Below, one piece after another: positions 1,579 to 48,040 of a stretch of DNA of 52,026 nt (positions are counted from its first letter, which is position 1; each line of letters begins with the position of its first letter). The translations under genes were made by a program, and so were the position numbers. Source of the DNA: Methanobrevibacter sp. (GTDB lineage Archaea; Methanobacteriota; Methanobacteria; Methanobacteriales; Methanobacteriaceae); NCBI RefSeq assembly GCF_017410345.1, contig NZ_JAFQQZ010000054.1, positions 1 to 52,026 on the forward strand, written 5' to 3'. The notes under the pieces are model-generated. The model did not search any database. It saw only the letters and a list, made by a program, of their open reading frames with translations, and was not told the origin of the DNA.

Positions 1579-4500
1579 ATGCAATTTCGAACACCATCAA
1601 AAAACAACACTATATCTAATAAGGATATTGAGAAGGAGTTTAAGAATCTAAGAAAGGAACTCTTGGATTTGACCTTAAGAAACCCTCTTCTTAGCTTCAA
1701 GCCAAGGAATAGGAATCTCAGTATCATTAATCAAACACCAATGAATGCATATAAGATCCTTGTTATAGAAAACAAGAGGATGTATTTCTCCCCTAACAAG
1801 GCAGAGACTAAAAGATCCAGGGCTCACACTTTCATAGACCAGACAAAGGAATTCCTGTCATCAGAAACCGATAAGACTTTAAAGGCTGATTTGACACCTA
1901 GTGAGCTTCAAAGAAGACTGTTTTATATTGACCAGCAATCCAAGACCATGGTTCAGGAACAGGGTTACAATATCCTATACATAGCCTTGGGATTCATAGA
2001 ATGGATTGACAAGAAGAAACCTAGACAAAAGAATTTAGCACCTCTCATTCTTATTCCTGTAGCTTTGGAACGAAAAAAGGTTGGAAACTCATTCTCATTG
2101 TCCTGGACAGGTGAGGACATTCAAAACAACATATCCATCCAAGCCAAACTCCGAGAAGCGGGAATAGAACTGCCTAAATTTGAGCAGACTTCCTACATAG
2201 AAGGGGTTAACCAATATTTGGCAGATGTCAAGAAGGCTATCAGACCATTTGGCAAATGGGATGTGAAGGATGATGTTGCATTGGGATTCTTCTCATTCAC
2301 TAAATTTGTCATGTACAATGACTTGAATCCAGAAAGCTGGAGCAAGGATGTCGATTTGACTGAAAATGAGCTGATTCAAGCAATATTCAATCCAAGCAAA
2401 AACATCTATGAGGATACATTTGAAGAGGAGGATGTGGATGAAAAACTCCATTACAAGACAATGTATCAGGTATTGGATGCCGATTCCTCACAGATTGCAG
2501 TTATAGAAAACGTAAAGGCAGGGCATAACCTTGTTGTGGAAGGGCCTCCTGGAACCGGTAAGTCACAGACCATCGTAAACCTGATTGCAGAGCTTATCGC
2601 AGAGGGAAAGACAGTTCTTTTTGTAAGTGAAAAGATGGCTGCATTGGAGGTTGTAAAAAGCAGATTGGATAGTGTAGGCCTTGGAAAATTCGTTTTGGAA
2701 TTGCACTCACATAAGACCAGACGAAAACAATTATTGAAAAACCTTAAAAAGGCAAGCAATGTAAGGGCTACAAGAGACTTGAAGCTGGATCAAACCCTTA
2801 GAAAGCTAGAAAACCTACGTGACCAATTGGACGAATATGCTGAAGTCATTCATGCTCCTGTGGCAAATGTGAATCTCTCACCATTTGAACTGTATGGTAT
2901 GAAGGAGGCATCTGAAGACTATTTCGCACGTCAGAATAGAATGCTGCCATTGGTGAGATTCGATAATGCTGAAGACCTGTCCATGAAGGATTTGGATGAT
3001 ATAATAATTTCATTGGAGAACCTGGCTGAATTGTATTCCACAATTTCCAAAAACAATCCATGGAGCTACTGCAATCCTAAAAGCCTGCTTCCTGCTGATT
3101 TAAGGGAAATTGAATTATTGATTAGAGACAGTTTAGAGTCCTTGAATGATTTCAGATATGAAATGAACATCGTCAATGAGGTCTATGGAATAAGAATACC
3201 AAATACCCTTAAGGAATATGAGGATTCAATAACCGCCTTGAATATTCTAAACAGTGAAAGCGCCAATCTGGTGGACAGTTCAGTATTGCTTAGCAAGCAT
3301 TGGTTCAACAATCCTGAGAAATCATTGGAATTAATCAAATTACTTCAACATTATCAGCATGCTTCCGGATTATTCAATAAGTTTTCAGACTATCTGCTTG
3401 TTGCAGACTTGGATACAATCATATATGATTTGGAAAGGGAATCCAATAAGAAATTCAAACTATTTGGCGGAAATTCCCATAAGGAAGAGCTTTATAAGCT
3501 TTATAATGGAAATGTGCCAAGCGATAGGGAAGCTTTAAACGATTTGATAAAAGTTAGAAACCACATCAAGATAAGACAAAGTCTAAATGACAATGAAATC
3601 CTTGGAAGGGCATATTTCGGTAATCTATGGAGCAAGAATGCAGACATTAATGAGTTGAAGCAAGTGGCAAACTGGATGAACAAGTTTGTCTATCTCATTA
3701 AAAATGGAACTTTCAGTGAAAATACCGTTAAAATGCTTTCAAATGACCTTTTCCTACCGGATATAGATTCCGGCATTGAAGAATATGTTGAAAAGGGCAA
3801 TAGGTTCTATGAAAACCTTAAAAAGCTTGAATCCAAGTTAAATCCAAGAAGCAGAATCATATTTAAAAGAGAAACAGATGATGTTCCATTTGATGCTTGG
3901 GAAAACCAATTGAACAAGTGGAAAGGACAATTGTCAAGCCTCCATTTATGGTCACAATATTCCAATACCAAAAGGGCATGCAGAAACAGCGAAGCATCAT
4001 TATTCATAAAGACCATTGAAAAGAGAAACATCAAAAAGGATGATGTCAAATCTTTGGTTTTAGGCAATTTTGCAGACAGCCTTTTAAACATTGTATTTAA
4101 TGAGAATGATACTTTGGCAACCTTCATTGGGGAATTGCATGAGAATAGAATCAAGGAATTCAAGGATTTGGATGTAAAGATCATCAACTTGAATAGAAAA
4201 AGGATTTTCAATAAACTAAACAGTGAAATTCCTAAGATATATGGTGCTGCAAATGACCCTGAAGCCAAGGTATTGGCTGGTGAATTTACAAGAAAAAGCG
4301 GCCATTTGCCTGTTAGAACATTATTGGAAAAGGCAGGAGGAACCATTAAGAAGATCAAACCTGTCTTCATGATGAGTCCATTGTCAATTGCACAATATCT
4401 TGATCCTACCAATCCTAAACTGCAGTTTGATGTGGTCATTTTCGATGAGGCAAGTCAGGTAAAGCCTGAAGACGCTTTAGGCGCATTCATGAGAGGAAAG

Positions 4501-7500
4501 ACTGCTGTTGTAATGGGTGACACACAACAATTACCACCAACAAGCTTCTTTGATCAGATGACTGACAGTGAAAGCGGTGAAGAGGTTGCTACCGCATTGG
4601 ATATGGAAAGCATATTGCATTTATGTAAATTATCATTCCCAGTCAAAATGCTCAAATGGCACTATAGAAGCCGTCATGAGTCTCTAATCAATATTTCAAA
4701 CAGGGAATTCTATGACAATGAGCTATTGGTTTATCCATCTCCATCACATACAGACCCTGAATTAGGTCTTAAGTTCCATTATAATCCTAATACCCAATAT
4801 CATAGGGGAGAAGGCTCTGCAAATCCTCTTGAGGCAAAGGACGTAGTCAAGGAGATATTCAGACACTTTGAGAGATATGGTGACAAAAAGAGTTTAGGTG
4901 TCGGCACATTCTCTGTAGCTCAAAAGAATGCGATTCTAGAGGAATTGGAGATTGAAAGGAAGGCACATCCTGAATTTGAAGCTCTCTTTTCAGAAAATAA
5001 GGAAGAAAGATTCTTCGTCAAGAACCTTGAAACCATTCAGGGAGATGAAAGGGATGTCATATTAATCAGTGTTGGATATGGTTATGACACTGAAGGAAAG
5101 ATGTCTCTAAACTTCGGTCCATTGAATCAGGACGGAGGAGAAAGACGTTTGAATGTTCTTGTCACAAGGGCAAGGGAGAAATGTGTTGTATTCACCAATT
5201 TCAGAGCTCATGACATTCATTTGACTGCAAATCCACCATTTGGTGTAAAATCATTGCAAAGTTTCCTGGAATATGCTGAAAATCTGCATTATAATCAGGA
5301 TGTTCAGTATGATGACTATGATGAAGCTCCATTTGAAGATGCAATCTACAATTTCATAGCAGAAAACGGTTATGAAGTGGACAAGAAGGTAGGTTGTGCT
5401 GGATTTAGAGTGGATTTGGCAATCATAGACCCGGATAATCCCGGAAAATATATCTTAGGTATCCAATGTGATGGCCATAACTACGCTTCAAGCAAGGTGG
5501 CAAGAGATAGGGATAGGCTGAGAGAGCAAGTATTGAATGGTTTAGGCTGGAACATCTATCATATCTGGTCAACAGACTGGTATAGAAATAGGGACTTGGC
5601 AAGAGCTAAGCTATTGGAGAATATTGAATCAACAATCACAAGCACTAAAGTAAAGGACTTGAAGAAGAAAATCAACGACGTAGAATCAATGAAAATCAAC
5701 CCTGTAACCACTGTTGTCCTTGGAAAAGATGATGAAAATGAAGATGATGATTATATTGCTGATAATGAAGAGGATGATATAAGCATTATTGATAATGATT
5801 TGGCCAATATCCAATCCATTAAGGAGGAGATGGATGAAAAGGCTGAAAAGGAAAAAGAAAAGGAAGACCTGATCAATAGGTATTTGGAAGACTTTGATGA
5901 TGAATTGACTAAAGAATCTTCTGATGAAAGCAAATCATCTGTTGAAGATAAAACTTCTATTGAAGATGAATTTTCCATTGAAAATATTCCTGATCTTGTT
6001 GATGATGAATATGATGAATCTATTCATATTAATGAGGATATAATAAAAGAAAAAGATAAAAAAGTGGATATTCCTGTTGAAGATAAAAAACCTATTCAAA
6101 AAGAAATAGATGAAATACCGGATATTCCTGTTGAAGATAAAAAACCTATTCAAAAAGAAATAGATGAAATACCGGATATTCCTGTTAAAGATAATATAAT
6201 CAATGAAAAAGATCAACTGAAACAATCCAATACTCATAAAAAACAGGAAAAAAGTCAAAAAACTAAATCTAAACAATCTAAGAATACAAAATTCAATTCA
6301 TCTAAAGATGATGTCTCCTCTAAATTTGAAGGAAAATCCAAAGTGAAAGAATCTAAAGTTAAAGGGGATGCTTCAAATAAAAAAGACGTTCTTGATGGGG
6401 AATTCAAAGTCAAAGAAAGAGCTCAACGTTCTGAAAGTTTTGAAAATTCTTCAAATAGAAACAGAAGCAATGATAATAATAGGGCAAAATCTTTAATGAA
6501 CAGATTGAGGAATATAGGGGATGAATTAGTAAATAATAAGCAAAATAATGATTCTCAAGACATTAAAGAACCTAAAAAGGTTCAAAAAGAACAAAAAAAG
6601 AAAATAGAAAAGCCTAAAAAAGAAAAATCAATTGATAAAGCTCAAGAGCAAATAAATAAAAAATCAAATAAGAAAGAAGTTCAAAAAGAAACTAAAATAG
6701 AAATTAAAGATGAATCTATTGATTTTGATAATGAAAGTAAGGATAATGAAATAGATGAAAATGTAAATCTTTATAAAGAAGAGGAACTAAATATTATTGA
6801 AGATAATATAGAATATGATGAAAAAGATAATACTGAAGAAATTTTCGAATATGCTGAAGAAGATATAATTGAAAATAATATAAACGATATAAGCGGTGCC
6901 CCAGTATACATCTTTGAGGATGATGAAGAGGATATGGATGATGTAATTGTATTCGGCCTTGAAGATGAAGAAGAGGGCATTGAAGAGATTTCAGAAGATA
7001 TTATCAATGAGATTAAAGAAGAAGATATGGAAAACAATGAAGCTGAAGGTATTGAAAATATGAGAGAATATAAGGCTCCAAGAAGAAAGAAAGACGATGA
7101 TCAATTCAATGATTCTCCAGATGTTATTGTTCCTATTAGTGCTGAAATGAGAAACAATAATCAAAACGATCATTACGATGAAGATGTAGATTATATTTCT
7201 CCTATCGATGATGAGGAATTTGAGGAATATTTAGAAGAATCTGAATCAGAAGATGAATTTGAAGAATTTTTTGAAGAATCTGATGATTTGAATGAGGAAA
7301 GCAATAGAGAATCTCAAGCAAATGATCATCCACAAACTCAAAATCATCCAGCACAAGACCCTAATGATCCTGATAATCCGTATTATTACAGTGCAGTTGG
7401 AATTGAAAATGCCCTTAAGAAGAATGCTGTTCAATACCCTAAAAATAATGACAGGAACAAGACTGGAATTGCAGGAACGGTCAATAGCCTTAAAAATGAA

Positions 7501-8640
7501 ATGCTCTACTTAAAGGCTTCTATGGATGAGATAGAGAATCCTACTGAAAGGGAAATGGTTTATGTTATAGACCGTAATGCAGATGATGAGTTCTTTGAAG
7601 ATCCATATGACCCATATATAGAACCTGAAGTTATTTATAATACTCAAAATACAGAAAAGGATAACTATGAATCATTATTTACCTCTAAAAAACATGAATA
7701 TTTAGATAAAATCGAGGAATATACCAATTCATCTTCTGATGTTGAATATATTGAAGATTCTTCTGATTCATTTTTAAAGGATATTCCTGAATTCGATTAT
7801 ATTGATGAGGAATCTGAACCTATAATTCCTATTGGTCAGGAAACCGAAATCTATCATTCTTCTGATGATTATTCCCAAATTGCTGAAACTATACCTGAAG
7901 AATCAGTTATTATAGAGGAATTAGGTTCAGAATTCATTGAAGATGATGAATTTGAACATATAGATGACATCGAAATCGATGACGATGAATTTGAAGGAAT
8001 CATCACTGATGTAGGTCAAGGCTATCAGAACTTGGAGGATCAAAGAATACAGGAAGCTAATGTTCTCAGTGCTGTAGATAATACCAGATTAACTCCTTCC
8101 GGTAAATTAAGCGATTATATTGAAGACTACAAGGAAATTGAAGACATAATCATCAAGTCTCCAGCTGAAATCTATGACGATGAGAAGAAATTGGCTACTG
8201 CTGTCATGGATATAGTTGCTGCTGAAGGTCCTGTTCATATTGACATTGTTATTCGTAGATTAAGAGAAGGCTGCGGCTTATCCCGTGCAGGAACTAAATT
8301 TAAGAATACCATACTTGATATCATTGACCGCAATGAAAATCATTTGCTTTTGATTAGAGAAAATGATTTCTTGTTCATAGACTATGACTCTGTAAAGGTT
8401 AGAAAAAGAGTTAAGCCAAATATCGACATGATTTCTGAAGTTGAAATAGAAAAGGCCATTGATTTGGTTTTAAGTTTTGAAAAATCCTTGAAAGTTCAAG
8501 ATCTGGCTAAAAATGTTTCCAGAGCTTTCGGTTTTAGATCAACATCTAAAAAGACTTCAAATAAGATCACTTTAGTCATAGATTCCATGATTGGCAAAGG
8601 AATTTTAATCAATAATAATGGTAAAATAGAATTCAGATAA
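1579..8640 (+). CDS. Giant DUF4011 / SF1 helicase / MTES_1575-type nuclease / DUF3320 protein
   Basis: A 2353-residue protein. Visible parts in order: a DUF4011-like N-terminus (LLDLTLRNPLLSF near 30); a superfamily 1 helicase with Walker A GPPGTGKS near 322, Walker B IFDEASQ near 955, GDTQQLPP near 980, QGDERDVI near 1153 and VTRARE near 1193; a Vsr/MTES_1575-like endonuclease (about 1250-1340, with VDLAIID, QCDGH and WSTDWY); about 780 low-complexity residues rich in Asp, Glu, Lys and Asn (about 1374-2154); then a DUF3320-like domain and winged-helix end (about 2190-2353). Proteins of this layout usually lack the long insert, which makes this one unusually large. The family is often found in defence islands, so a role in nucleic-acid surveillance is likely, but the function is inference. 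The start has a weak AGGGAT site upstream. Confidence 0.9.
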   Translation: MQFRTPSKNNTISNKDIEKEFKNLRKELLDLTLRNPLLSFKPRNRNLSIINQTPMNAYKILVIENKRMYFSPNKAETKRSRAHTFIDQTKEFLSSETDKTLKADLTPSELQRRLFYIDQQSKTMVQEQGYNILYIALGFIEWIDKKKPRQKNLAPLILIPVALERKKVGNSFSLSWTGEDIQNNISIQAKLREAGIELPKFEQTSYIEGVNQYLADVKKAIRPFGKWDVKDDVALGFFSFTKFVMYNDLNPESWSKDVDLTENELIQAIFNPSKNIYEDTFEEEDVDEKLHYKTMYQVLDADSSQIAVIENVKAGHNLVVEGPPGTGKSQTIVNLIAELIAEGKTVLFVSEKMAALEVVKSRLDSVGLGKFVLELHSHKTRRKQLLKNLKKASNVRATRDLKLDQTLRKLENLRDQLDEYAEVIHAPVANVNLSPFELYGMKEASEDYFARQNRMLPLVRFDNAEDLSMKDLDDIIISLENLAELYSTISKNNPWSYCNPKSLLPADLREIELLIRDSLESLNDFRYEMNIVNEVYGIRIPNTLKEYEDSITALNILNSESANLVDSSVLLSKHWFNNPEKSLELIKLLQHYQHASGLFNKFSDYLLVADLDTIIYDLERESNKKFKLFGGNSHKEELYKLYNGNVPSDREALNDLIKVRNHIKIRQSLNDNEILGRAYFGNLWSKNADINELKQVANWMNKFVYLIKNGTFSENTVKMLSNDLFLPDIDSGIEEYVEKGNRFYENLKKLESKLNPRSRIIFKRETDDVPFDAWENQLNKWKGQLSSLHLWSQYSNTKRACRNSEASLFIKTIEKRNIKKDDVKSLVLGNFADSLLNIVFNENDTLATFIGELHENRIKEFKDLDVKIINLNRKRIFNKLNSEIPKIYGAANDPEAKVLAGEFTRKSGHLPVRTLLEKAGGTIKKIKPVFMMSPLSIAQYLDPTNPKLQFDVVIFDEASQVKPEDALGAFMRGKTAVVMGDTQQLPPTSFFDQMTDSESGEEVATALDMESILHLCKLSFPVKMLKWHYRSRHESLINISNREFYDNELLVYPSPSHTDPELGLKFHYNPNTQYHRGEGSANPLEAKDVVKEIFRHFERYGDKKSLGVGTFSVAQKNAILEELEIERKAHPEFEALFSENKEERFFVKNLETIQGDERDVILISVGYGYDTEGKMSLNFGPLNQDGGERRLNVLVTRAREKCVVFTNFRAHDIHLTANPPFGVKSLQSFLEYAENLHYNQDVQYDDYDEAPFEDAIYNFIAENGYEVDKKVGCAGFRVDLAIIDPDNPGKYILGIQCDGHNYASSKVARDRDRLREQVLNGLGWNIYHIWSTDWYRNRDLARAKLLENIESTITSTKVKDLKKKINDVESMKINPVTTVVLGKDDENEDDDYIADNEEDDISIIDNDLANIQSIKEEMDEKAEKEKEKEDLINRYLEDFDDELTKESSDESKSSVEDKTSIEDEFSIENIPDLVDDEYDESIHINEDIIKEKDKKVDIPVEDKKPIQKEIDEIPDIPVEDKKPIQKEIDEIPDIPVKDNIINEKDQLKQSNTHKKQEKSQKTKSKQSKNTKFNSSKDDVSSKFEGKSKVKESKVKGDASNKKDVLDGEFKVKERAQRSESFENSSNRNRSNDNNRAKSLMNRLRNIGDELVNNKQNNDSQDIKEPKKVQKEQKKKIEKPKKEKSIDKAQEQINKKSNKKEVQKETKIEIKDESIDFDNESKDNEIDENVNLYKEEELNIIEDNIEYDEKDNTEEIFEYAEEDIIENNINDISGAPVYIFEDDEEDMDDVIVFGLEDEEEGIEEISEDIINEIKEEDMENNEAEGIENMREYKAPRRKKDDDQFNDSPDVIVPISAEMRNNNQNDHYDEDVDYISPIDDEEFEEYLEESESEDEFEEFFEESDDLNEESNRESQANDHPQTQNHPAQDPNDPDNPYYYSAVGIENALKKNAVQYPKNNDRNKTGIAGTVNSLKNEMLYLKASMDEIENPTEREMVYVIDRNADDEFFEDPYDPYIEPEVIYNTQNTEKDNYESLFTSKKHEYLDKIEEYTNSSSDVEYIEDSSDSFLKDIPEFDYIDEESEPIIPIGQETEIYHSSDDYSQIAETIPEESVIIEELGSEFIEDDEFEHIDDIEIDDDEFEGIITDVGQGYQNLEDQRIQEANVLSAVDNTRLTPSGKLSDYIEDYKEIEDIIIKSPAEIYDDEKKLATAVMDIVAAEGPVHIDIVIRRLREGCGLSRAGTKFKNTILDIIDRNENHLLLIRENDFLFIDYDSVKVRKRVKPNIDMISEVEIEKAIDLVLSFEKSLKVQDLAKNVSRAFGFRSTSKKTSNKITLVIDSMIGKGILINNNGKIEFR
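6067..6192 (+). repeat. 54-bp in-frame tandem repeat inside the helicase gene
   Basis: Two identical 54-bp copies (6067-6120 and 6121-6174) and the first 18 bases of a third with one change (6175-6192). Each unit encodes 18 residues beginning DIPVEDKK and ending KEIDEIP. It lies in the low-complexity part of the giant protein; exact identity points to a recent slippage or unequal exchange. Confidence 0.95.
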
Positions 8641-8953
8641 TTTTATTTTACTATACATTTTTTATATTAAATTTATCTTTTTTTATATTCAAATTTTTAT
8701 TAATTCTTTAATATAAATGAGGCTTTCTTTTTAAATTATTAAATATTACTTCAATTTTATAATTTTGAACTAATTGATATACATATCCTTATTATTTTTT
8801 AATATTTTAGTCAATTTTTATAGAATCTCCATATCCTTATGATCTAATAATTTTCTACTTTAATAATTTTCTAACATCATAATTATCAGAATAATTAATA
8901 TTATTACTTTTTCTATTATAATTATTATTTATTTATTACTTTTTTCTATATTT

Positions 8954-9131
8954 GTAATACTTAAATTTTTTTAAAATTATTAAAAAATTGAAAAAAAGTA
9001 ATACTAAAATTTTTATATATTATTACTAATTTTATAAAAAGTAATACTGTATTGATTTTTAAAAGTAATAAAAAATTGATAATTATTATTACTTAATTAT
9101 TATTTATTTGATAAAAAGTATTACTTTTTAT
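8954..9131. repeat. Cluster of AGTAATA / TATTACT motifs ending in a 21-nt palindrome
   Basis: Copies of AGTAATACT lie at 8997-9005 and 9040-9048, shorter AGTAATA at 9064-9070, and the reverse form TATTACT at 9021-9027 and 9087-9093. The cluster ends at 9111-9131 in a hairpin with 10-bp arms (ATAAAAAGTA and its complement) around one base. This looks like a multi-site binding region; no binder is known. Confidence 0.5.
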
Positions 9132-9474
9132 AGATCTTATAATTTTAAGATTTTTTAATTATAAATCCTGAAAATTTGGAAATATGATAAATTTTTTGGC
9201 ATTAATAAAAATTTCATTTTGAAAGATTAAAACAAATAGAGAGAAAAATAATTCAGCTGAAAAATAGTACTATTTCATATCATAAAATGCGAACAGTCCA
9301 TGTTATTGAAAACTATATTGCAATTTTTCTTATGAAAAATCTGTTAGTTAGATTTCAAGTGTAAAATGAAAAATTCTGGCCAAAAATCAAAAATGTTCTA
9401 AAATATAAAAAAGATACAATTACATATATATCAATTAGTTGTTTTTTGATAGTTTTGAATATTGTATATTTTTA

Positions 9475-9502
9475 ACTTCGTTATACTGTAGTTTAACGAA
9501 GT
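9475..9502. other. 28-bp 11-6-11 palindrome, candidate recombinase core site
   Basis: The left arm ACTTCGTTATA (9475-9485) and right arm TTTAACGAAGT (9492-9502) are inverted copies matching at 10 of 11 positions, separated by CTGTAG. The 11-6-11 layout is that of dif/Xer sites, including archaeal ones. The arms are not a known dif sequence to me, so an operator is an equal possibility. Confidence 0.35.
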
Positions 9503-10045
9503 AAATTTTTATAAAAAATTCATGAAAATCAGCTAAATGGCCTTCTTTTTGATTAATGAAAAATCGATTTTTTTATAGGAATTTTTTCAAAAATAATCAT
9601 AATTTCTTAAGATCTGTGTTTATTGAAAATTATTAGATTTATTATCACAATTTTATTGGTCATTATAATATTCTATTTATCCCTATTATTAAATTTAAAA
9701 AAATGGAAATTTGTTTAATTTTATACGAATAGTTTAATTATTTTAGAATTATTTTATTCTGTAAAAAAATTATAAATTTTAAAATAATTAAAATTAGTTT
9801 CATTTAATACGAATTGTTTTAAATTATAAAAATAAAAAAATCAGTTCGAATATAAAAAATAATTAGTTTTATTATAAACTAATAGTTTAATATAATATAA
9901 ATTGTTTGTTAATTTACAAATAGTTCAGTAAAAAAGAAATATTTTTATATAATGCAAATAGTTAGTAAAATATAAAACAAAAATTTATCAATTTTCTTAA
10001 AAAAAAGCAAGTATGAAATTAAAAAAAGTAAAAAAAGAAATAAAA

Positions 10046-10330
10046 TTACTTTATTTCCTCTAATTCTTCCAGTTCAGCCTTGAATTTATAATCCTGGAAC
10101 TGATAATACTTAAATCTATAAGGCATTTTAGATCTTTTAGGTCTCTTTTTAGCTTTAGGTTTATTCTTATTCTTAAGCCTATCCAATTGAGCCCTCTTTT
10201 TTTCTCTGTTTCTTTGAGCTCTTTGAGCTTGTGTTGTGGCTAATAGTTTTTTATTTCTTCGGTGGTGAGGAGGATTATAGGAATTTCTATGAATTAGTCT
10301 TCTCCTGCTTCTAATAATTGATATTGACAT
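10046..10330 (-). CDS. Small very basic protein, unknown
   Basis: A 94-residue ORF, rich in Arg and Lys over its first 70 residues (for example RNREKKRAQL and KPKAKKRPKR), followed by an aromatic stretch (YRFKYYQFQDYKF) and an acidic end (ELEELEEIK). No signal peptide or membrane segment. The composition suits nucleic-acid or ribosome binding, but no family is recognised. ATG at 10330 has AGG seven bases upstream. It sits 29 bases after another small ORF on the same strand, so the two may be co-transcribed. Confidence 0.55.
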   Translation of the reverse strand: MSISIIRSRRRLIHRNSYNPPHHRRNKKLLATTQAQRAQRNREKKRAQLDRLKNKNKPKAKKRPKRSKMPYRFKYYQFQDYKFKAELEELEEIK

Positions 10331-10359
10331 TTTAAAACCTAAAATAAAAAGATCTGAAT

Positions 10360-10539
10360 TTATAAAGTATTGGTTCTTTTATCTAAAGTATTTTGAATCT
10401 CATCAATCCTATCAACTACTACACGAATGGCCTGTTCACCATTTCTAGTAGGATTAATACCTTGTTCAACTAATAATGCATCTCTGATATCTCTTAATCT
10501 GTCAATAGAATCAATTTTCATAATAGTACTATAAAACAT
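10360..10539 (-). CDS. Small protein, unknown
   Basis: A 59-residue ORF starting MFYSTIMKID. This ATG is chosen because GGTGAA lies three bases upstream; an in-frame ATG 36 bases earlier (10575) has no ribosome site. The sequence is mostly amphipathic helix (RLRDIRDALLVEQG, VVVDRIDEIQNTLD), hence a likely small helical or coiled-coil protein. No family is recognised. It lies directly upstream of the basic 94-residue ORF. Confidence 0.5.
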   Translation of the reverse strand: MFYSTIMKIDSIDRLRDIRDALLVEQGINPTRNGEQAIRVVVDRIDEIQNTLDKRTNTL

Positions 10540-10762
10540 AATTTCACCATATAATTGAGATAAATTGTTAAGCATATCTAAATTATTATTCTAAAAAATA
10601 CAATTAAATATATGATTTTTCTAATATTAATAGTTATTAGTAAAAATTGAAAATAATGGAATATTTATTTAAAAAATAGAAAAAAGAATTAGAAGATAAA
10701 ATTAGAAAAAAATTAATAAAAAAAAATTAAAATAAAAACGAGTAATATCCTAAGATATTACT

Positions 10763-13384: not shown

Positions 13385-14239
13385 ATGAATTTTGATTTCA
13401 AAGAGATGATTTTGATCTTCCTTAGAGGCCTATTTATGGGATCTGCAGATATTGTTCCTGGCGTTTCAGGAGGAACCATTGCATTGATCACTGGAATTTA
13501 TGAAAGATTGATATATGCCATCAGCCGCATAAGATTCAGTTTCCTAAAGCCACTCTTAAAGGGCAATCTCTCCGATTTCAAGGAAAGACTGATTGAAGAA
13601 ATTGATTTTGAACTCTTTATTCCATTGGCATTAGGTATAGGAATTGCATTCATCACATTAGCTAAAGTGATCAGCTATCTTCTAGATACCCAAACAGCAT
13701 ATACCTTTTCATTCTTCTTGGGATTAATCTTGGCTTCTGCATATATATTATACACTAAATTAGGCAAATTCAATCTAAGATTGCTGATCATCACTCTAAT
13801 TGGAATCATTCTGTCATATGTTTTTGTAGGATTGAACCCGATTGCAACAAACCACAGCCTGATTGTAATATTCATTTCAGGCCTTATTGCAATCTGTGCT
13901 ATGATCCTGCCTGGAATATCAGGATCTTTCCTATTATTGCTGCTAGGGCAATATCAATACATGCTGAATGCCTTGAATTCAAGAAATCTCATAGAGATTT
14001 TCGTATTCTGCATTGGAGCGGCCATAGGAATCCTAGGATTTTCAAAGCTATTGAACTATCTGCTTGAAAGGTACGAATCCTCCACTATGGCATTTTTGAT
14101 TGGTATAATGGTTGGAACATTAAGATTACCTATAAATCAGATTACAACAAACAATGGGTCTTGGTTCATTTGCATCTTGCTAGCCCTTATAGCATTTGCA
14201 ATAATCATTGCTTTAGAGAAAAAATTCAAAAAGGAATAG
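13385..14239 (+). CDS. DUF368 membrane protein, polyprenyl-phosphate transporter
   Basis: A 284-residue integral membrane protein of the DUF368 family. The signature SADIVPGVSGGTIALITGIYE lies near residues 20-40 and a second, related half-site MILPGISGSFLLLLLGQY near 178-195, consistent with an inverted-repeat transporter with about eight membrane helices. Bacterial members (PopT) recycle undecaprenyl phosphate to the inner face of the membrane; here the substrate would be a lipid carrier for pseudomurein or glycan assembly (inference). Full length. A GAGGA ribosome site precedes the ATG. The HEAT-like gene follows after 63 bases on the same strand. Confidence 0.88.
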   Translation: MNFDFKEMILIFLRGLFMGSADIVPGVSGGTIALITGIYERLIYAISRIRFSFLKPLLKGNLSDFKERLIEEIDFELFIPLALGIGIAFITLAKVISYLLDTQTAYTFSFFLGLILASAYILYTKLGKFNLRLLIITLIGIILSYVFVGLNPIATNHSLIVIFISGLIAICAMILPGISGSFLLLLLGQYQYMLNALNSRNLIEIFVFCIGAAIGILGFSKLLNYLLERYESSTMAFLIGIMVGTLRLPINQITTNNGSWFICILLALIAFAIIIALEKKFKKE

Positions 14240-40507: not shown

Positions 40508-42214
40508 CTAATCGGAAATCAATTTAAATAACCTTATGAACTTCTCATCAATGTCCTTCTCTTCAGCATATAAAGCTAAGTATTGTGCAAATGTAGGTTT
40601 GCTGAAGCCTCTATATGTCATATTATAGAATATGTCTCCTAAAGATTTTGAAAATTTCTTGGATTTTCTTATCTTTTGAATTGCCTTAGCATCTATTTCC
40701 ACTTCATATCCACATTCATCGCTTATGTATTTGGATAATGCCTGAGCGAGCACATCATTTGGGAAAGTGTCTTCAAACTCTTTCTGGCCAATAACAAAGA
40801 TATTTGAGTTTTCAATCATTCCATTTTCAATCCATTTGTTTAATCTTTCCTTTGTTTCCTCATCAGCATCATTGTCCATCAATGCAAAGATATCCGTTTT
40901 GGAAAATGAATTCTTTATTATGCGTATGAAATTAGGTATGTCCTTTATGCCATCTGCCTTTACAATCTTTAGGAAGTTTTGGGTGATTGGATAGCCATAC
41001 AATTTCTCATACATGATTGGAATGAACTTAAGCTCTGATTCCCCCTCCACAATAAGTAACTTGCTTGTAAAGAAGAGGTCTATGTTCATTATTCCAAGAT
41101 TTGCCAATGCTATCTGGGTTTGGGTAGTGCTGTCCAACTCAAAAATTTGAGATCCTCTTTCTGCATCAAGACTTATCAACTTGATTTCATCAAGATTGAC
41201 TTGATTGATTAAGAATGGAGAGTGAGTGGTTATTATTATCTGTTTTCCCTCTTTAGAAAGGTCTTTTAATAAGCGTAGAACATCTAATTGGGCTTTGATA
41301 TGAAGGTGGGTTTCAACCTCATCGAATACATATACAAGGTCATTCTTGTCCTTTTTATGCTTGAAAATAGCAAGTGTGGTACGCCTGTTTGTACCGTCTC
41401 CCATCTTTTCAAGAAGCATTTGCTGGTTATTATTATTTAGTAATTCTACATTGATCTTTAGATTGAGTTTAGGTTCGCTTGTAACTATTGGATTTATTTC
41501 CTTGAAGTCAGGAAGGAATTCTTTCAATTGAGTGTTCAGTTCCTGTGCATTTTCATTGTTCAATTGTTCCTCTTTGAAATTGTCTATGTAATCATCAATA
41601 TGCTGATTGATAGTTTTTCCTTCTATCTTATAGTCCCATATGTCTTCCTTTAGCTCCTTAAAGAAGGTGTTTTCAAAGAATGAATCTATGTTTTCAAATT
41701 CTCTACTACCTAAAAAGCTGATTGGATAATTTAGAGTTTTTACTTCTGTGAATTCATCGTTTTCTAACTCTTTGATTATATTTCCCTTTAATGTTTCCAC
41801 TTTAGAATTGGACCTGTATGTAATGTTGAATGTAAATGAGTATTTCTTTAAGATTTGCTTTTGCTCATCTTCTTCTAAACTGTTGAATTCTTGACTGTTT
41901 AACTCTTCTTTGATTTGATTGGATTTTTCTATAGAAGGTTTTATCTTATATGTATTATTAAGTGTGTCTTCATTGACTTTTGATTCCATGAAATAGGTAT
42001 AGTCAATATCCTCTAGCTCTATAGTTACAGGATTTTCTATTTCATTGAAATCGTTTATGTCTATTTTCTTTTTACTAAATAGAATTTTAAGTGAATCTAT
42101 AAGTGATGTCTTTCCTGCATCATTTTCCCCTATTATTACATTCAGGCCTTGATTGAATTCCATATTGAAGTTCTTTAATGACCTGAAGTTTTTGATTTTA
42201 ATTGATTTTAGCAT
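40508..42214 (-). CDS. OLD-family ATP-dependent endonuclease (AAA ATPase + TOPRIM)
   Basis: A 568-residue protein. It starts MLKSIKIKNFRSLKNFNMEF, with Walker A IIGENDAGKTSLID near 27-40; the ABC-type Walker B is VYVFDEVETHLHIKAQLD near 290 and ITTHSPFLINQ follows. The C-terminal TOPRIM nuclease has IVEGESELKFIPIMYE near 385 and ALMDNDADEE near 445. OLD proteins cut DNA and occur in anti-phage systems such as Gabija and P2 old. Here there is no UvrD-like helicase next door, so it is not Gabija. GTGAT lies four bases before ATG at 42214; the in-frame GTG at 42223 is part of that site. It directly follows a 129-residue gene. Confidence 0.9.
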   Translation of the reverse strand: MLKSIKIKNFRSLKNFNMEFNQGLNVIIGENDAGKTSLIDSLKILFSKKKIDINDFNEIENPVTIELEDIDYTYFMESKVNEDTLNNTYKIKPSIEKSNQIKEELNSQEFNSLEEDEQKQILKKYSFTFNITYRSNSKVETLKGNIIKELENDEFTEVKTLNYPISFLGSREFENIDSFFENTFFKELKEDIWDYKIEGKTINQHIDDYIDNFKEEQLNNENAQELNTQLKEFLPDFKEINPIVTSEPKLNLKINVELLNNNNQQMLLEKMGDGTNRRTTLAIFKHKKDKNDLVYVFDEVETHLHIKAQLDVLRLLKDLSKEGKQIIITTHSPFLINQVNLDEIKLISLDAERGSQIFELDSTTQTQIALANLGIMNIDLFFTSKLLIVEGESELKFIPIMYEKLYGYPITQNFLKIVKADGIKDIPNFIRIIKNSFSKTDIFALMDNDADEETKERLNKWIENGMIENSNIFVIGQKEFEDTFPNDVLAQALSKYISDECGYEVEIDAKAIQKIRKSKKFSKSLGDIFYNMTYRGFSKPTFAQYLALYAEEKDIDEKFIRLFKLISD

Positions 42215-42223
42215 GGATATCAC

Positions 42224-42613
42224 TTACTCATTAAATGAATTTAAAAATGGAATTAGATATGTAAGTTCAATAGGTTTGTAAGTTTCTTTTCTGGTTTGAT
42301 TATCGTAGATTACTTCACAAATTTCAAAACTTAAGTTGATTTCTTCGTCTTGTTCTTTTCCAAAGCAGACCCAAGTGTTTAGTTCTACAAAGTAGTTAAT
42401 TTGTGGAACTAACATTTCATCTTCTCCTTGGAAAGTCATTTTATTGTTTAGTTCGTTGAACTCTTTTACAGTTGTTTTTAGAGTTGATCTGGCGTATACA
42501 TTGTCTAATTCTGTGTAATTGTTTTCATTTAGCCATAAGACGAATTGGAATGTAATGTCGTCTAGTTCTAGTATTTCTTTAGTTTCTAAGTTTTTAGCTA
42601 TTGCTACTTGCAT
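42224..42613 (-). CDS. Small unknown partner of the OLD nuclease
   Basis: A 129-residue soluble protein (starts MQVAIAKNLETKEILELDDI; ends YLIPFLNSFNE). It looks alpha/beta, with no membrane segment. No family recognised. GTGAT sits upstream of the ATG. Its stop is nine bases before the OLD start, whose ribosome site begins right after the stop, so the two are translated together. A role as regulator or structural partner of the ATPase is inference. It starts 34 bases after the upstream unknown gene. Confidence 0.7.
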   Translation of the reverse strand: MQVAIAKNLETKEILELDDITFQFVLWLNENNYTELDNVYARSTLKTTVKEFNELNNKMTFQGEDEMLVPQINYFVELNTWVCFGKEQDEEINLSFEICEVIYDNQTRKETYKPIELTYLIPFLNSFNE

Positions 42614-42647
42614 GTTATCACACTAATTTTATATTAAAATTTTTTTA

Positions 42648-43571
42648 TTAAATTAAATTAGGAAAAAAATCAAAATTGTTTAATCTATCAAAATTTTGAG
42701 AATAAAATTCCATATTTTTACTATATTTACCAAAGACCCCATTATTTATATATTCTCCTTTTATTCTTATTATTGTGCTTTTTTTAGGGGAAACATTTGT
42801 AGTTTTTGACCTTATCACTCCAAATTTAAGATTATCATTTATCCTAATTTTAACTATCCTAAAATTTTTTATAGAGCAATCAATTAGTTTAATGTCAAAT
42901 AAAGACCCTTCGGCAGAATTTGATTCTTTTAATTTTAAAATATTATTTCTATCTATTTCCACAATTTTATTAAATAAAATTATTTCAAAAATAATCTCTT
43001 TTACAATATAAAAATATGATTTTAAAGCTTTTTCATAATATTCAAATTCCTCATTTTTTGATTTTGATAACTCTATAAATTTTTTAAATTTATCTGAATC
43101 ATGAAAGGAATCTCTTAAATTCAAAATTAAATCGAAAATATTATTATCTTCTGGAAAAAAATCATTAAAAATGTTTTTTAATTCAAGATTATCCCTATGA
43201 CAGTTTTCATCATATTGATTAAAAATATGGGAATAAGGCAAATTAATTAATTGTATAACTTTATCATCATAATAATAATGATTTAAAACCCATAATATAA
43301 AATTTATTTTTAAAGCCAAAGGAAAGCAATAATCTTTTATCATTTTTAAGATAGGCAATGCATTTTCAGGAAAACTCTTAAAAAAATATAATGAAGCTGC
43401 TAAAAAACTTTCAAATTGATTTTTATCTTCTAAAGAAAAATGAAAAAAATTATAATAAAACAAATTTTTATAATCTGCTAATGAATTTAGTCTTTCAAAT
43501 TCCTCTTTAAATTCAGAAACCTCTTTTAATTCTAAAAAAGATTCACCAATTTCTTCCACTATATACATCAT
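42648..43571 (-). CDS. Unknown protein overlapping YaaC
   Basis: A 307-residue mostly helical protein, very rich in Phe, Asn, Lys and Ile. The first 230 residues look like a helical bundle (FEEFERLNSLADY-like segments, LFYYNFFHFSLED, ILNLRDSFHDSDKFKKF); the end (about 235-307) is beta-rich (CSIKNFRIVKIRINDNLKFG, STIIRIKGEYINNG). No family recognised. The start at 43571 follows AAGGAAG and overlaps the YaaC end by 29 bases; the ORF is open up to 43634 but that would overlap by 92. Translational coupling to yaaC is likely. Confidence 0.65.
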   Translation of the reverse strand: MMYIVEEIGESFLELKEVSEFKEEFERLNSLADYKNLFYYNFFHFSLEDKNQFESFLAASLYFFKSFPENALPILKMIKDYCFPLALKINFILWVLNHYYYDDKVIQLINLPYSHIFNQYDENCHRDNLELKNIFNDFFPEDNNIFDLILNLRDSFHDSDKFKKFIELSKSKNEEFEYYEKALKSYFYIVKEIIFEIILFNKIVEIDRNNILKLKESNSAEGSLFDIKLIDCSIKNFRIVKIRINDNLKFGVIRSKTTNVSPKKSTIIRIKGEYINNGVFGKYSKNMEFYSQNFDRLNNFDFFPNLI

Positions 43572-44688
43572 CCATAAACTTCCTTTTAATTTCTTCTTTT
43601 TCTTCTCTAAGATTATTTTCTTCAATAGATTCATTGACTATTTCTTCTACCAAACCTTTTATATTATCAAAATCAAAACCAGAAGGTTTATAATATTCAA
43701 CGGAAAAAATTAATTCTTTATTTAATATTTCGTTTAAAATTAAGTTGGGAAATTTTCGCATATTTATGTCTAAAAATTTTTCGATTATATAAAAATAACG
43801 ATTCTCATCTAATGAATTTTCACTAACCCATGGATTAATATAATATCTTGACAACATACTCAATAAATACAAAATTAAAAAATGAACTGTTATCTGAGAA
43901 AAATAAATGAAACGATTATCCTGATTTAATGAAGATATAAAAAATTCTTCACCCATAATATTTCTTATTACAATATCTCCTTTTTCGTAAGGTTTTTTAT
44001 AACAACTCATATGATCTTTAGAAACATTAGGTGTAAAATAATATTTTTCAAAGTTAGGCAAATTATTAAAATAATTATTGATTAAATCTTCATTGTCAAA
44101 ATAATCTCCTTGATATAATAAATATACACCATTTTCATCTTTTACTCTATCTACTTTTATAGCCAAAGATTTTTTATTAAATATCATTTCATAATCATCT
44201 TTTAATTCTGGAATAAATGAAAGTAAATCATCTAAATTAAAATCAAAAGACTTAATATAACTAATATCACTATTTTCTAAAACTTGATATAATTGCAAAA
44301 AAGTTCCTGTTACAGGATAAATTTTAAAATCAAGCAAATCTTCAGATTTGAATTTATGGACGTTTAAACCATGTCCTGTTGAATCATCCTGATAACATCT
44401 TTTTGCTAATATTAAGGCTTTCACTAAACATGATGCTCCATAATATAACAATGTAGGTTTAGTTAAGACAGATGCATCTCTAGAGGAAACATAATACTCT
44501 TTTGCTTGAGTAATATAATATTTCATCAAATATGCTCTCTTTTCGAACTTTTCACTATTATCAAACTTTTTACAATTTTTTTTAAAATAATTCAAACAAA
44601 TATCAATATTTTCAAATTTTTTAAATTGGTTCCATAGTTCTTTATTGGGATTTTCTGTTAAAATAATTTCTTTTTCCATAATAATCAT
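43543..44688 (-). CDS. YaaC-like protein
   Basis: A 381-residue protein resembling the YaaC family: PNKELWNQFKKFENIDICLN at about 13-33, AKEYYVSSRDASVLTKPTLL then YYGASCLVKALILAK near 62-97, and HGLNVHKF near 107. YaaC proteins have no settled biochemical function and often sit near restriction and other defence genes. The ATG at 44688 is only one base after the stop of the PIN gene and has no ribosome site, which points to re-initiation after the PIN reading frame. A second ATG (44679) is possible. Confidence 0.75.
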   Translation of the reverse strand: MIIMEKEIILTENPNKELWNQFKKFENIDICLNYFKKNCKKFDNSEKFEKRAYLMKYYITQAKEYYVSSRDASVLTKPTLLYYGASCLVKALILAKRCYQDDSTGHGLNVHKFKSEDLLDFKIYPVTGTFLQLYQVLENSDISYIKSFDFNLDDLLSFIPELKDDYEMIFNKKSLAIKVDRVKDENGVYLLYQGDYFDNEDLINNYFNNLPNFEKYYFTPNVSKDHMSCYKKPYEKGDIVIRNIMGEEFFISSLNQDNRFIYFSQITVHFLILYLLSMLSRYYINPWVSENSLDENRYFYIIEKFLDINMRKFPNLILNEILNKELIFSVEYYKPSGFDFDNIKGLVEEIVNESIEENNLREEKEEIKRKFMDDVYSGRNW

Positions 44689-44689
44689 A

Positions 44690-45214
44690 TTATTTATTTT
44701 TTCTTAAATAACTTGTAAAACTATCTGCATTTAACCATCTATTATATTTTAACATTTTTGACCAAATCAAATTACCTTCTTTTTCAGTGATTATACCCTT
44801 TTTTAAGGCCATTACAAGAATATCTCCTGTAGTGATTCTTTCCAAATTATATTTTTCCACATAAGGCATTACATCTTTTGTATTATTGCTTGCCACAATA
44901 CCATTATGCTTTTTGGCATGAGCAATGACAGCTGCTTCCCCTTTTCCTATAGTTTTATCTGAGAAATAATTTGAAGATAATTTCATAAAAAGAAGATAAT
45001 CTTCCGTATCTGTATCAAATTTAACTATTTTAACAAAACCCTTATCAATTAGATTATCAACTCTATTCTTAAGTTTTTGTATATGTGGTCTGTCAAATTC
45101 CTCATAAACTTCATAAGGAAGGAAAATGCATTCAAATTGTTTTTCTAAAATGGAGGTATCATCTATTACAATAAAACAGCTTAAACAATCAGTATCATAA
45201 AAAGTAGGCTTCAT
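44690..45214 (-). CDS. PIN-like nuclease, module 2
   Basis: A 174-residue paralogue of the PIN protein at 24830-25291: FYDTDCLSCF at the start, DKGFVKIVKF, GKGEAAVIAHAKKHNGI, ASNN where Asp-Asp is expected, and RITTGDILVMALKKGIITEK, the usual end of DUF3368-like PIN proteins. It has a 20-residue extra tail (RWLNADSFTSYLRKNK). AGGTGATAAG precedes the ATG within the 12-base gap after the peptidase gene. Probable nuclease effector of the operon; the Asn pair makes activity uncertain. Confidence 0.78.
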   Translation of the reverse strand: MKPTFYDTDCLSCFIVIDDTSILEKQFECIFLPYEVYEEFDRPHIQKLKNRVDNLIDKGFVKIVKFDTDTEDYLLFMKLSSNYFSDKTIGKGEAAVIAHAKKHNGIVASNNTKDVMPYVEKYNLERITTGDILVMALKKGIITEKEGNLIWSKMLKYNRWLNADSFTSYLRKNK

Positions 45215-45226
45215 CTTATCACCTAC

Positions 45227-45952
45227 TTAGAATGATTCATTATCATTTAAATTGTACACCATATCCTCACGAAAAGCATCTAATAATAGTTCCTCTTTTT
45301 TTCCTTGGGAGATTAAATCTTCTTCAAATGCTTTTTCTGTTAATTTGATGTAATTTCCAATGGTCAAATATTCCTTATTTAAATACGGAGTGTATAAGCT
45401 TGAATCATAACCTCTAATGGATGCATTACGAATAACATCTTCCTTAAATACCATATACTGTTCATAAGTAATTTCATTTAAGAAGAATCTGAGTCTCAAT
45501 AATAAAGCTTGATGTGATATTTGGAAGTATTGTTCAGCATCTATTATTGAATCCAAATCCCACCTTTGAATATCATTGTTTAATTTATATGTTTCTATTG
45601 CCCCATGAGGCATCAATAAGCATGATGCAAAAAGATCTGCCTTTTTCTCTATCTCATCATCACTGTCTAATCCACAAATATTAAAATTATTATCATCATA
45701 CTTTAAGTGATACAATTCATGAGCTATTGTGAAAGCCTGTCTTCCTTTCCTATGCCTTGAATTTACGAATATTATGTTTTCATTATTTAATCTTAGACAA
45801 GCTCCACTAATGTCATCATCCATTACTTTAAATACTATTGTCAAGTTCTTTATTTTATTTATGGCAAGTGAAAATATGTCAATGGATTCATTTATATCGA
45901 TTTTCCATTGTCTCCTGCAAGCACAAGCCAATTCATTCATTTCCAAATACAT
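45227..45952 (-). CDS. ImmA/IrrE-family metallopeptidase, module 2
   Basis: A 241-residue peptidase. The zinc site is FTIAHELYHLKYDD near 75-88 with the third ligand in KKADLFASCLLMPHG near 108-120. It shares EQYFQISHQALLLRLR, GYDSSLYTP and KKEELLLDAFRED with module 1. Expected to cleave the neighbouring XRE repressor when triggered. GGAG before the ATG overlaps the end of the HTH gene; only two bases separate the two. Confidence 0.88.
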   Translation of the reverse strand: MYLEMNELACACRRQWKIDINESIDIFSLAINKIKNLTIVFKVMDDDISGACLRLNNENIIFVNSRHRKGRQAFTIAHELYHLKYDDNNFNICGLDSDDEIEKKADLFASCLLMPHGAIETYKLNNDIQRWDLDSIIDAEQYFQISHQALLLRLRFFLNEITYEQYMVFKEDVIRNASIRGYDSSLYTPYLNKEYLTIGNYIKLTEKAFEEDLISQGKKEELLLDAFREDMVYNLNDNESF

Positions 45953-45954
45953 AA

Positions 45955-46287
45955 TTACTCCTGTTTATTTGTAACCCTTGATAAGAATTCTAAATTATTA
46001 ATTATTCTATTCATCTCTGCAATATCTTCTAAAGATAAGTTTCTATTATTTGATCTGAATGCCATATTAGTTTTGGAATACTCTCCAATACCTAATATTA
46101 TATATTCTGGAGAGCATCTGTAAAGATTAGATAGTTTGATTATAGAATCACTCTTTAATTTTCTTTCATTACTTTCCAACTTAGCTATTTGACCCTGTTT
46201 GAATCCAAGATATTCTGCTATTTGGTTTTGAGTGAAATTATGTTCTAATCTCATTCTTTTTAATCTATCACCTACTGTTTCTACCAT
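45955..46287 (-). CDS. XRE-family HTH regulator, module 2
   Basis: A 110-residue repressor-like protein (METVGDRL form starting MVETVG). The helix-turn-helix is GDRLKRMRLEHNFTQNQIAE through FKQGQIAKLESNER. The tail FRSNNRNLSLEDIAEMNRII is like module 1 and may be the part recognised by the peptidase. ATG at 46287 is preferred because GGGGT lies upstream; a GTG at 46302 in that site is the alternative. It heads a run of seven tightly spaced genes and probably represses them through the inverted repeat at 46321-46363. Confidence 0.87.
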   Translation of the reverse strand: MVETVGDRLKRMRLEHNFTQNQIAEYLGFKQGQIAKLESNERKLKSDSIIKLSNLYRCSPEYIILGIGEYSKTNMAFRSNNRNLSLEDIAEMNRIINNLEFLSRVTNKQE

Positions 46288-46320
46288 ATTTTTAAACCCC
46301 ACTATTCATTTAATAATATA

Positions 46321-46363
46321 TTGGAATATTTTATTATATAAATTTAACTAAAAAATATTCCAA
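46321..46363 (-). promoter_or_regulatory. Operon promoter inside a 12-bp inverted repeat
   Basis: Perfect arms TTGGAATATTTT (46321-46332) and AAAATATTCCAA (46352-46363) enclose 19 bases that contain the minus-strand TATA box (TTTATATAA, centred near 46338), about 50 bases before the HTH start. A bound dimer pair would block TBP, the classic autorepressor layout. Confidence 0.65.
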
Positions 46364-46443
46364 ATGGTTGAAAAATTGGATGCTAACAATTTTTAAATAT
46401 CTGTGAAATTATAAAAAGTATTTATAATTTTTTATAAAATAAC

Positions 46444-47976
46444 TTATTTTAAATCATTCGGAATTTCTGATGCAAATAATACCATAGAATTATCTGTTTG
46501 TTTTTCAGATTCAATAGTGTCCACAAAATATAATAAATAAATTATTGCATTCCTAACAATTTTAGATATTTTTATTACAGCTTCTAATAGCTCCTCTTCA
46601 GTCATTGCATCATTTTCATCTTCTTTAGGATATAATTTAATTTTTAAAGACCTATGAGTTAATGCATTCCTAATATCATTAAGTTTTTTCTCTTCACCAT
46701 ATAAAATATCTTCATGAATATTAAATAAAGCTTTTAAACCATTATTCTCAAAATCAAAAGTTTCTCTTATTTTTTTCTTCTTAAAGTCTTTATACCAAAG
46801 TCCTTTAAAATTTACTTGCTTTTTATTAATATTTAAATCTAAATAGAAATTTATAAAAAATGCAATTTTGTCTAATATATTATAAAAATTCTTGAATGAA
46901 TCTTTTAATAATTGTATTCTAATATTGTGTAATTCATAATCATAGGAATCAATAATAATAACATTATTATTTATAAAACTTAAATCTAATTTATTATATT
47001 GTGATAATATTAAATTTAATCTGCTTGAAATAAAATCCATTTTTATCTGATTTAAATAAGAAGACAAAATTAAAAATTTGTCATCCTCAAGTTTTTCATT
47101 TTCTTTAATTGGAAGAGTCATTCGTTTTATACATATAGAATCACCAATACAATTTACACACTGTTGACAAAAATTACATAAATTTAAATATAACTTATTT
47201 TTTAAGCAAAAAACATTTGAGAATTCCTCCAAATTTGTATAATTATCATTTATTTTAAATCTTGAAATTTTTATATTATCTAAAAATTCCTTAGAATTAT
47301 TCTCTTCAAAAATTTTAATATGTTCTTGAGCAATATTTCTTGCTGAAAATGTTAAATTATTACTTTTCAATGCTTTTTTAAATGAAAGATATGAATCTTT
47401 TAATATTAAATCATCATGATTAACAAGAAATCTTAATTTTAATAAACATAAACCTTTATTTACTAAAGCCATCCCAAAATTTGGATTTAATTTCAATGCA
47501 TTTTCATAATATTCTAGTGCATCTATATACCTTCCAAGACCCATATGTAAATTTCCCAAGTTTACTAAAGATTGAACTTTAATATTTAACTCAGCCCCAT
47601 TATTATAAGTTAAAGACCTTTTGTATAAATCTTTAATTTTAATTATAATATTCTCTCCATTAACAAATTTTTCTGAGGTAATTGAATAATAATTCAAGTA
47701 CCCGTTTGCCAAATTATAATAAATCGAAGCAGGTGTAAAAATTTGTGAAATATAATCTAAATGTTCTTCAATATAAATAATGCCTTTATTTATTAAGGAA
47801 GAATCTTTTGTTTCTAAACCTAAATCTATATATAAATTACTCAAGAGAGAGCATGCATATTTAGATTTTGATCTTTCTAATTTGCTTATAATTCTCCAAA
47901 CCTCTTCTAAATCATTAGATTCTAAAAAAATATATGCTTCTTTATATAATTTTTCAATTTCATCCCTATTTAACAT
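46444..47976 (-). CDS. TPR protein with LA2681-like HEPN domain
   Basis: A 510-residue protein. TPR repeats occupy about 1-215 (LNIKVQSLVNLGNLHMGLGR, ALEYYENALKLNPNFGMALV). A Cys cluster CNFCQQCVNCIGDSIC lies near 265-280 and may bind zinc. The C-terminal part (about 330-500) is HEPN-like with the RNase motif DIRNALTHRSL near 435 (R-x4-H), as in LA2681-type proteins. Probable RNase effector with a sensing TPR part. There is no good ribosome site, and a TATA box (TTATATAAAAA, centred near 48000) is only 24 bases before the ATG, so the message is probably leaderless. It is upstream of, but separate from, the XRE operon. Confidence 0.78.
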   Translation of the reverse strand: MLNRDEIEKLYKEAYIFLESNDLEEVWRIISKLERSKSKYACSLLSNLYIDLGLETKDSSLINKGIIYIEEHLDYISQIFTPASIYYNLANGYLNYYSITSEKFVNGENIIIKIKDLYKRSLTYNNGAELNIKVQSLVNLGNLHMGLGRYIDALEYYENALKLNPNFGMALVNKGLCLLKLRFLVNHDDLILKDSYLSFKKALKSNNLTFSARNIAQEHIKIFEENNSKEFLDNIKISRFKINDNYTNLEEFSNVFCLKNKLYLNLCNFCQQCVNCIGDSICIKRMTLPIKENEKLEDDKFLILSSYLNQIKMDFISSRLNLILSQYNKLDLSFINNNVIIIDSYDYELHNIRIQLLKDSFKNFYNILDKIAFFINFYLDLNINKKQVNFKGLWYKDFKKKKIRETFDFENNGLKALFNIHEDILYGEEKKLNDIRNALTHRSLKIKLYPKEDENDAMTEEELLEAVIKISKIVRNAIIYLLYFVDTIESEKQTDNSMVLFASEIPNDLK

Positions 47977-48026
47977 ATTATCAAATATTTTCCTTTTTAT
48001 ATAATTAAATCATTTGTAAATAATAT

Positions 48027-48040
48027 TGTCCACTCGGACA
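48027..48040. promoter_or_regulatory. GC-richer hairpin before the TPR-HEPN gene
   Basis: TGTCC-ACTC-GGACA, a small hairpin that stands out from the AT-rich surroundings, just upstream of the TPR-HEPN TATA box and 43 bases after the stop of the membrane gene. Operator or terminator; cannot tell. Confidence 0.35.

Follow-up and report, generated by a model that had tools for sequence, protein, structure and literature searches.

Closest described systems

In Hhe, a DUF4011-domain anti-phage protein, the domains follow the order DUF4011, SF1 helicase, Vsr-like nuclease, and DUF3320. PDC-S37, a single-gene phage-defense candidate, received no mention in the literature searched (coverage of which was partial), where DUF4011 and DUF3320 are themselves seldom mentioned. 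SF1B helicases of the UPF1/SMUBP2/Sen1 type are not known to have a fused Vsr-like nuclease or a comparable C-terminal pair of winged helices. MTES_1575 combines an SF-I helicase with a novel Vsr-type REase and two wHTH domains that overlap DUF3320 (Anantharaman et al. 2013, PMC3710099). In B. subtilis, mitomycin damage is repaired by the MrfAB (YprAB) pair (PMC11194089); among the YprA helicases, MrfAB belongs to the repair and not to the defense branch (PMC12458937).

The window analyzed here, a 52,026-nt contig stretch from a Methanobrevibacter sp. with a 1.84-Mb genome that named relatives put close to M. olleyae, encodes a giant of 2,353 amino acids (positions 1579 to 8640, forward strand, as are all features of the gene given below) that, judged by its profile matches, belongs with the PDC-S37/Hhe-like helicase-nucleases. 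The PADLOC profile of PDC-S37 scores 1619.8 bits, its best stretch aligning aa 15 to 1403 with model positions 4 to 1384 of 1550, so that the likeness covers the whole helicase-nuclease part. A model of this length leaves no room for the ∼780-residue block described below, and the gene, unlike a patchy defense gene, is core and vertically inherited. The likeness to Hhe (676 bits in PADLOC) extends over homologous DUF4011, helicase, and nuclease parts, and Pfam matches follow the Hhe order; the respective NCBIfam scores, 910.3 bits for Hhe (NF042953; cut-off, 2000) and 1302.7 bits for ProA (NF058533; cut-off, 1500), are below their cut-offs, and the giant linker and its embedded module set the protein apart. 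With MTES_1575-type proteins the giant shares the SF1 helicase, the MTES_1575 REase, and two C-terminal winged helices, where the models agree with the published analysis; the HEPN domain of MTES_1575 itself is absent from its Pfam matches, and a long disordered linker separates its nuclease from the wHTH domains. MrfA and MrfB are different enzymes (an SF2 helicase with the MZB domain and a DEDDh exonuclease, as opposed to an SF1 helicase with a Vsr-like nuclease) and come into consideration as ancestral gene neighbors of the giant, possibly in a shared pathway. The protein is an unusual build of a probable genome-care or defense enzyme and does not represent a new type of system. Its giant tether and the module embedded there make it a lineage-specific variant, a description of which was not found in the part of the literature covered by the search.

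Domain architecture and predicted disorder

The protein starts with DUF4011 (aa 27 to 191, positions 1657 to 2151; PF13195, E = 5.8e-41), followed by a UPF1/SMUBP2-like SF1 helicase (aa ∼289 to 1207, positions 2443 to 5199) that was recognized from Pfam AAA_11 and AAA_12 matches, PDB sequence matches, and motifs. The helicase motifs are intact (Walker A GPPGTGKS at aa 322, DEASQ at 956, GDTQQLPP at 980, and LNVLVTRARE at 1191), and the closest solved structures of the motor by sequence are those of UPF1, SMUBP-2, and Sen1. The Vsr/EDxHD-type nuclease (MTES_1575 REase; aa 1252 to 1349, positions 5332 to 5625; PF18741, E = 1e-34) is modeled with a fold close to that of I-Bth0305I (3r3p; Foldseek TM-score of 0.77 by target length). 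The C-terminal DUF3320 region (aa ∼2195 to 2353, positions 8161 to 8637), in which the match to PF11784 itself is limited to aa 2203 to 2240, is predicted to form two winged helices, with Foldseek matches to winged-helix proteins and AlphaFold pLDDT values mostly above 90.

Between the nuclease and DUF3320 lies a charged low-complexity block of 783 residues (aa 1393 to 2175, positions 5755 to 8103), in agreement with the ∼780 residues of the preliminary description. The block has no Pfam match at E ≤ 1, is rich in Glu (17.0%), Asp (12.9%), Lys (10.1%), Ile (10.1%), and Asn (8.6%), so that Asp and Glu together account for 30% of its residues, and is devoid of Trp and Cys. In an AlphaFold model of aa 1241 to 2353, built with 35 orthologs, 670 of the 1,113 residues have pLDDT values below 50; aa 1444 to 1926 and 2001 to 2130 are predicted to be disordered, with values of ∼25 to 45 over most of their length. 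The ordered parts of this model are the nuclease, a charged helix at aa 1407 to 1444 (positions 5797 to 5910; pLDDT up to 84), part of the conserved module discussed below, a conserved helix preceding the C-terminal domains (aa ∼2135 to 2162, positions 7981 to 8064), and the winged helices. The longest predicted disordered run among 251 ORFs (from 20 sampled stretches of this genome and the window) is the 961 residues of the giant, followed by 647 in the next protein and a median of 36, as ranked by a simple charge-hydropathy measure, which orders proteins and does not prove disorder. With its low predicted order, biased composition, and lack of domain homology, the block looks like an intrinsically disordered region and is, as had been suspected from its letters alone, predicted to be mostly disordered.

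Growth of the linker

Counted from where the nuclease ends up to the conserved C-terminus, linker length is 13 to 72 aa in bacterial relatives, 47 to 62 aa (and acidic) in the related family f2, which is probably Methanothermobacter, 113 to 185 aa in the genera g9, g11, and g17, and 377 to 1,104 aa in a single Methanobacteriaceae clade of the Methanobrevibacter type. In a core tree built by a quick method, with SH-aLRT support only and long branches among the outgroups, all long-linker orthologs form one clade, as does every genus sampled more than once, deep paralogs excepted. Eight other Methanobrevibacter genomes carry continuous orthologous ORFs of 2,265 to 2,633 aa, the copy in G009 beginning at a contig edge. 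Tandem repeats cover 3 to 33% of the long linkers versus 0 to 3% of the core, and the units, which differ from species to species, are multiples of 3 nt in 195 of 206 cases; the giant itself has 2.8 copies (93% matches) of a 54-nt (18-aa) unit, KEIDEIPDIPVEDKKPIQ, at positions 6045 to 6194. These data show a linker that gained its length at the root of the Methanobrevibacter-type clade and has since continued to change by in-frame tandem duplication, which bears out the earlier impression of a fast-growing block.

A useful control is provided by eight same-family paralogs, about 50 to 58% identical over their most conserved part, whose linkers measure 21 to 43 aa. In G088, G104, and G118, the paralog linker is just 23 to 25 aa long, while the orthologs found next to the short-linker paralogs in G088 and G104 have linkers of 921 and 1,015 aa, respectively. 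The retention of short linkers in these paralogs indicates that the growth is specific to the gene of the giant and is not genome-wide drift. A single linker can be traced along the tree from ∼50 to more than 1,000 residues with same-family paralogs as controls, illustrating how an archaeal enzyme of gut and rumen methanogens gains a very long disordered tether through in-frame repeat growth. Four patchily distributed paralogs with a short nuclease-DUF3320 linker (L092, L147, L148, and L149) include several that have an extra 500 to 800 aa between the helicase halves instead.

A conserved module inside the block

Most of the block has an identity of 0.1 to 0.6 among members of the genus, with a rise to 0.79 to 0.83 at aa 1933 to 2007 (positions 7375 to 7599). 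This module of ∼75 residues, which was absent from the preliminary description, reads YY..L.KN...Y...SL.EIENPT....V.V.DR in the giant and, in 35 to 40 sequences from several genera, Y/F-Y ... L-x-K-N-x3-Y ... Y-I/L-x2-S-L/M-x-E-I-E-N-P-T-x4-V-x-V-x-D-R. It was found in 70 of the 120 family genomes searched, in 7 genera, as a single copy per genome that lies in the gene of the giant in every case with a complete frame; degenerate forms are readable in G032 and G027, and there was no match at the short-linker loci of f2, g9, g11, and g17. A known domain, or one shared with other proteins, was considered and rejected, given the lack of Pfam matches at E ≤ 1 and the single match per genome. The predicted elements are a strand (aa 1935 to 1937), a helix (aa 1964 to 1986), and a second strand (aa 1993 to 1995), and a second model, from 46 rows, gives strand-helix-strand, with pLDDT values of about 60 to 80, i.e., moderate confidence.

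A stretch that is conserved like the enzyme domains means that the block is not pure filler. The original view of the whole block as a linker has to be narrowed to this extent: a conserved and probably folded element occupies about one-tenth of it, in the long-linker lineage only. The module also shows how a conserved element can arise within such a tether.

Selection and codon usage

The dN/dS ratio in nine ortholog pairs is 0.01 to 0.04 in the core (where dS is saturated in one pair), 0.01 to 0.07 in the module, 0.11 to 0.24 in conserved stretches outside the module, and ∼0.4 in the variable part of the block (0.35 to 0.55 in eight pairs; the ninth, which is divergent and near-saturated, has 0.92), with no sign of positive selection in the block in any of them. 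The low values of the conserved stretches are partly circular, as these were chosen on overlapping sequences; conservation of the module is backed independently by the cross-genus search of the 120 family genomes.

Codon usage in the block differs from that in the rest of the gene, as had been noted, yet the claim that its Lys codons are almost always AAA was overstated: AAA accounts for 60 of 79 (76%) Lys codons in the block versus 46 of 120 (38%) before it, with GC3 values of 0.19 and 0.39, respectively. Restricted to two-fold codons, GC3 drops from 0.42 in the core to 0.175 in the linker and, within the latter, differs between the conserved stretches (0.28) and the remaining, variable part (0.12). 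All 20 orthologs measured have a lower value in the linker than in the core, including a GC-rich one (0.52 versus 0.79). Codon bias here thus follows conservation and is not a mark of foreign origin.

Proposed role of the tethered enzyme

The explanation that we favor as a whole, with a probability of about 45%, is that the giant is a core helicase-nuclease of genome maintenance, possibly with antiviral activity, and that its DNA-binding tail is held on an acidic disordered tether. It is an old, vertically inherited Methanobacteriaceae protein consisting of DUF4011, a UPF1-like SF1 helicase, a Vsr-like nuclease, the linker, and tandem winged helices, in which the motor and the nuclease would act on DNA chosen by the winged helices. 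As a long flexible tether, the block would give the DNA-binding winged helices access to DNA at a distance from the motor and the nuclease, and its acidity could keep non-specific DNA away from the protein, which would hold the nuclease in check until the helicase and the winged helices engage the proper substrate. The embedded module may dock on a partner or back onto the helicase or the nuclease. Counting against this explanation is the dN/dS of ∼0.4 in the variable part, fast enough for it to be mostly filler. An intriguing but rather unlikely elaboration is that of a family-wide core nuclease for genome surveillance in these archaea, with the tether setting its activity and the lineage-specific module acting as a docking site for a partner (MrfAB and the replication/repair machinery being possible ones), a member of a "defense" family having become a housekeeping DNA-repair factor in methanogens.

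The chief rival of the tether explanation, to which we give tentative weight as a less probable account, is mostly neutral growth: replication slippage in an AT-rich genome would have lengthened a linker whose length matters little, with selection keeping only the net charge and the module. The same dN/dS of the variable part, its many gaps, the species-specific repeat units, and the fact that its codons are the most AT-rich of the gene all fit this account. It is less easily reconciled with the short linkers of the same-family paralogs, some of them in the same genomes, with the lack of any complete ORF of the long clade that has gone back to a short linker among the genomes sampled, and with the preservation of acidity throughout. 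Net charge per residue ranges from -0.09 to -0.27 in the long forms and from about -0.23 to -0.38 in presumed Methanothermobacter, all linkers measured, short and long, being net acidic.

Phyletic distribution and gene neighborhood

In collections with one genome per species, a hand count that left aside genus g3 found the gene in 63 of 64 good genomes, G128 being the exception. Genus g3 has either a more distant copy only (linker, 77 to 170 aa) or nothing. Together with the core tree, these counts show a gene that is near-universal in Methanobacteriaceae and vertically inherited. A large DUF4011 gene is also core in P. aeruginosa, where it flanks a defense hotspot (PMC10250203).

The gene of the giant lies directly downstream of, and in the same direction as, mrfA-mrfB in f2 (the five g18 genomes) as well as in g9, g11, g17, and g10; in g8, mrfA-mrfB is likewise upstream, with one gene in between. 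Domain assignments for the pair come from the g17 copies, in which mrfA has MZB and an HRQ1-like winged helix and mrfB has RNase_H_2. By gene order, then, the ancestral place of the gene is beside this DNA-repair pair, and the old neighborhood suggests a role in the repair or surveillance of DNA. In Methanobrevibacter, the gene adjoins an aldo-keto reductase gene, and in this genome mrfAB is found on another contig (C31), so that the neighborhood argument is an ancestral one only.

The preliminary description had raised the possibility that the block is a pathogen-variable zone. The corresponding scenario, an antiviral defense protein with the block as its virus-facing, arms-race part, draws on the 1,620-bit and 676-bit PADLOC matches to PDC-S37 and Hhe and on the matches, below cut-offs, to the NCBIfam models of ProA and Hhe, profiles that allow a defense role and make antiviral activity of the giant possible. 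As an account of the block, it appears improbable: patchiness is a property of the short-linker paralogs, while the gene itself is near-universal and vertical; dN/dS in the block is below 1; and the gene sits in conserved chromosomal surroundings, about 32 kb from the defense-like island of the window. A caution follows for annotation, as the label "phage-defense candidate" can fit a core, vertically inherited gene with ancestral DNA-repair neighbors.

Charge pattern

The succession of acidic, Lys-rich, and again acidic parts that had been noticed in the block is real in the sense that its charge blockiness has a z-score of 8.0 against residue shuffles. The Lys-rich, net basic stretch between the acidic arms spans aa ∼1541 to 1700 (positions 6199 to 6678), and the same pattern was seen in all 9 Methanobrevibacter genomes tested (z = 4.5 to 12). 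Such patches in a long disordered block would suit phase separation, in which the charged block would drive the enzyme into condensates with DNA or with partners. The linkers of most other genera have their acidity spread more evenly, and patchiness there is weak or absent; it is accordingly not a conserved property, and we regard condensate formation as quite improbable.

Integrity of the reading frame

That the giant is an artifact of assembly or gene fusion can be dismissed: although several MAG contigs end in the block, two orthologs have N gaps in its repeats, and a frameshift in G033 and an in-frame stop in G003 fall within it, this explanation is refuted by more than 25 genomes, the single-contig assemblies G011, G062, G067, G088, and G094 among them, in which a continuous ORF runs from the nuclease through the long linker to the C-terminus.

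The stop in G003 (locus L065) is a TAA near position 10277, and the frameshift in G033 (L068; positions 13500 to 13637, reverse strand) lies in a repetitive part that contains an A8 run; either could be an assembly error or a real break. In L121 and L126, the N runs lie exactly inside the linker's species-specific tandem repeats, and short-read MAGs will for this reason under-report linker length. Split two-gene forms were rejected as a general feature, since the short C-terminal ORFs in MAGs are mostly at contig ends and the remaining cases comprise two N gaps in repeat arrays and the single breaks in G033 and G003. Programmed frameshifting, suggested by three overlaps of 136 to 137 nt, was likewise rejected, as two of the three overlaps span N runs.

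Surroundings of the gene in the window

The giant is followed by a 2.1-kb, very AT-rich gap (positions 8641 to 10762; 12 to 29% GC). No Rfam match was found in the window, this gap included, that would indicate an RNA element within the gene or downstream of it. The gap contains a basic 94-aa ORF (positions 10046 to 10330, reverse strand) that has no Pfam match and whose position is kept in several loci of the genus. Further downstream, positions 40508 to 51845 form the AT-rich, defense-island-like region, with GC3 of ∼0.13 to 0.17 in the genes from position 42648 on. Its genes encode a type IIG restriction-methylase fusion, a HEPN_LA2681 protein with TPR, an M78/ImmA-like peptidase, a YaaC-like protein, and an OLD/GajA-like ATPase-TOPRIM protein.
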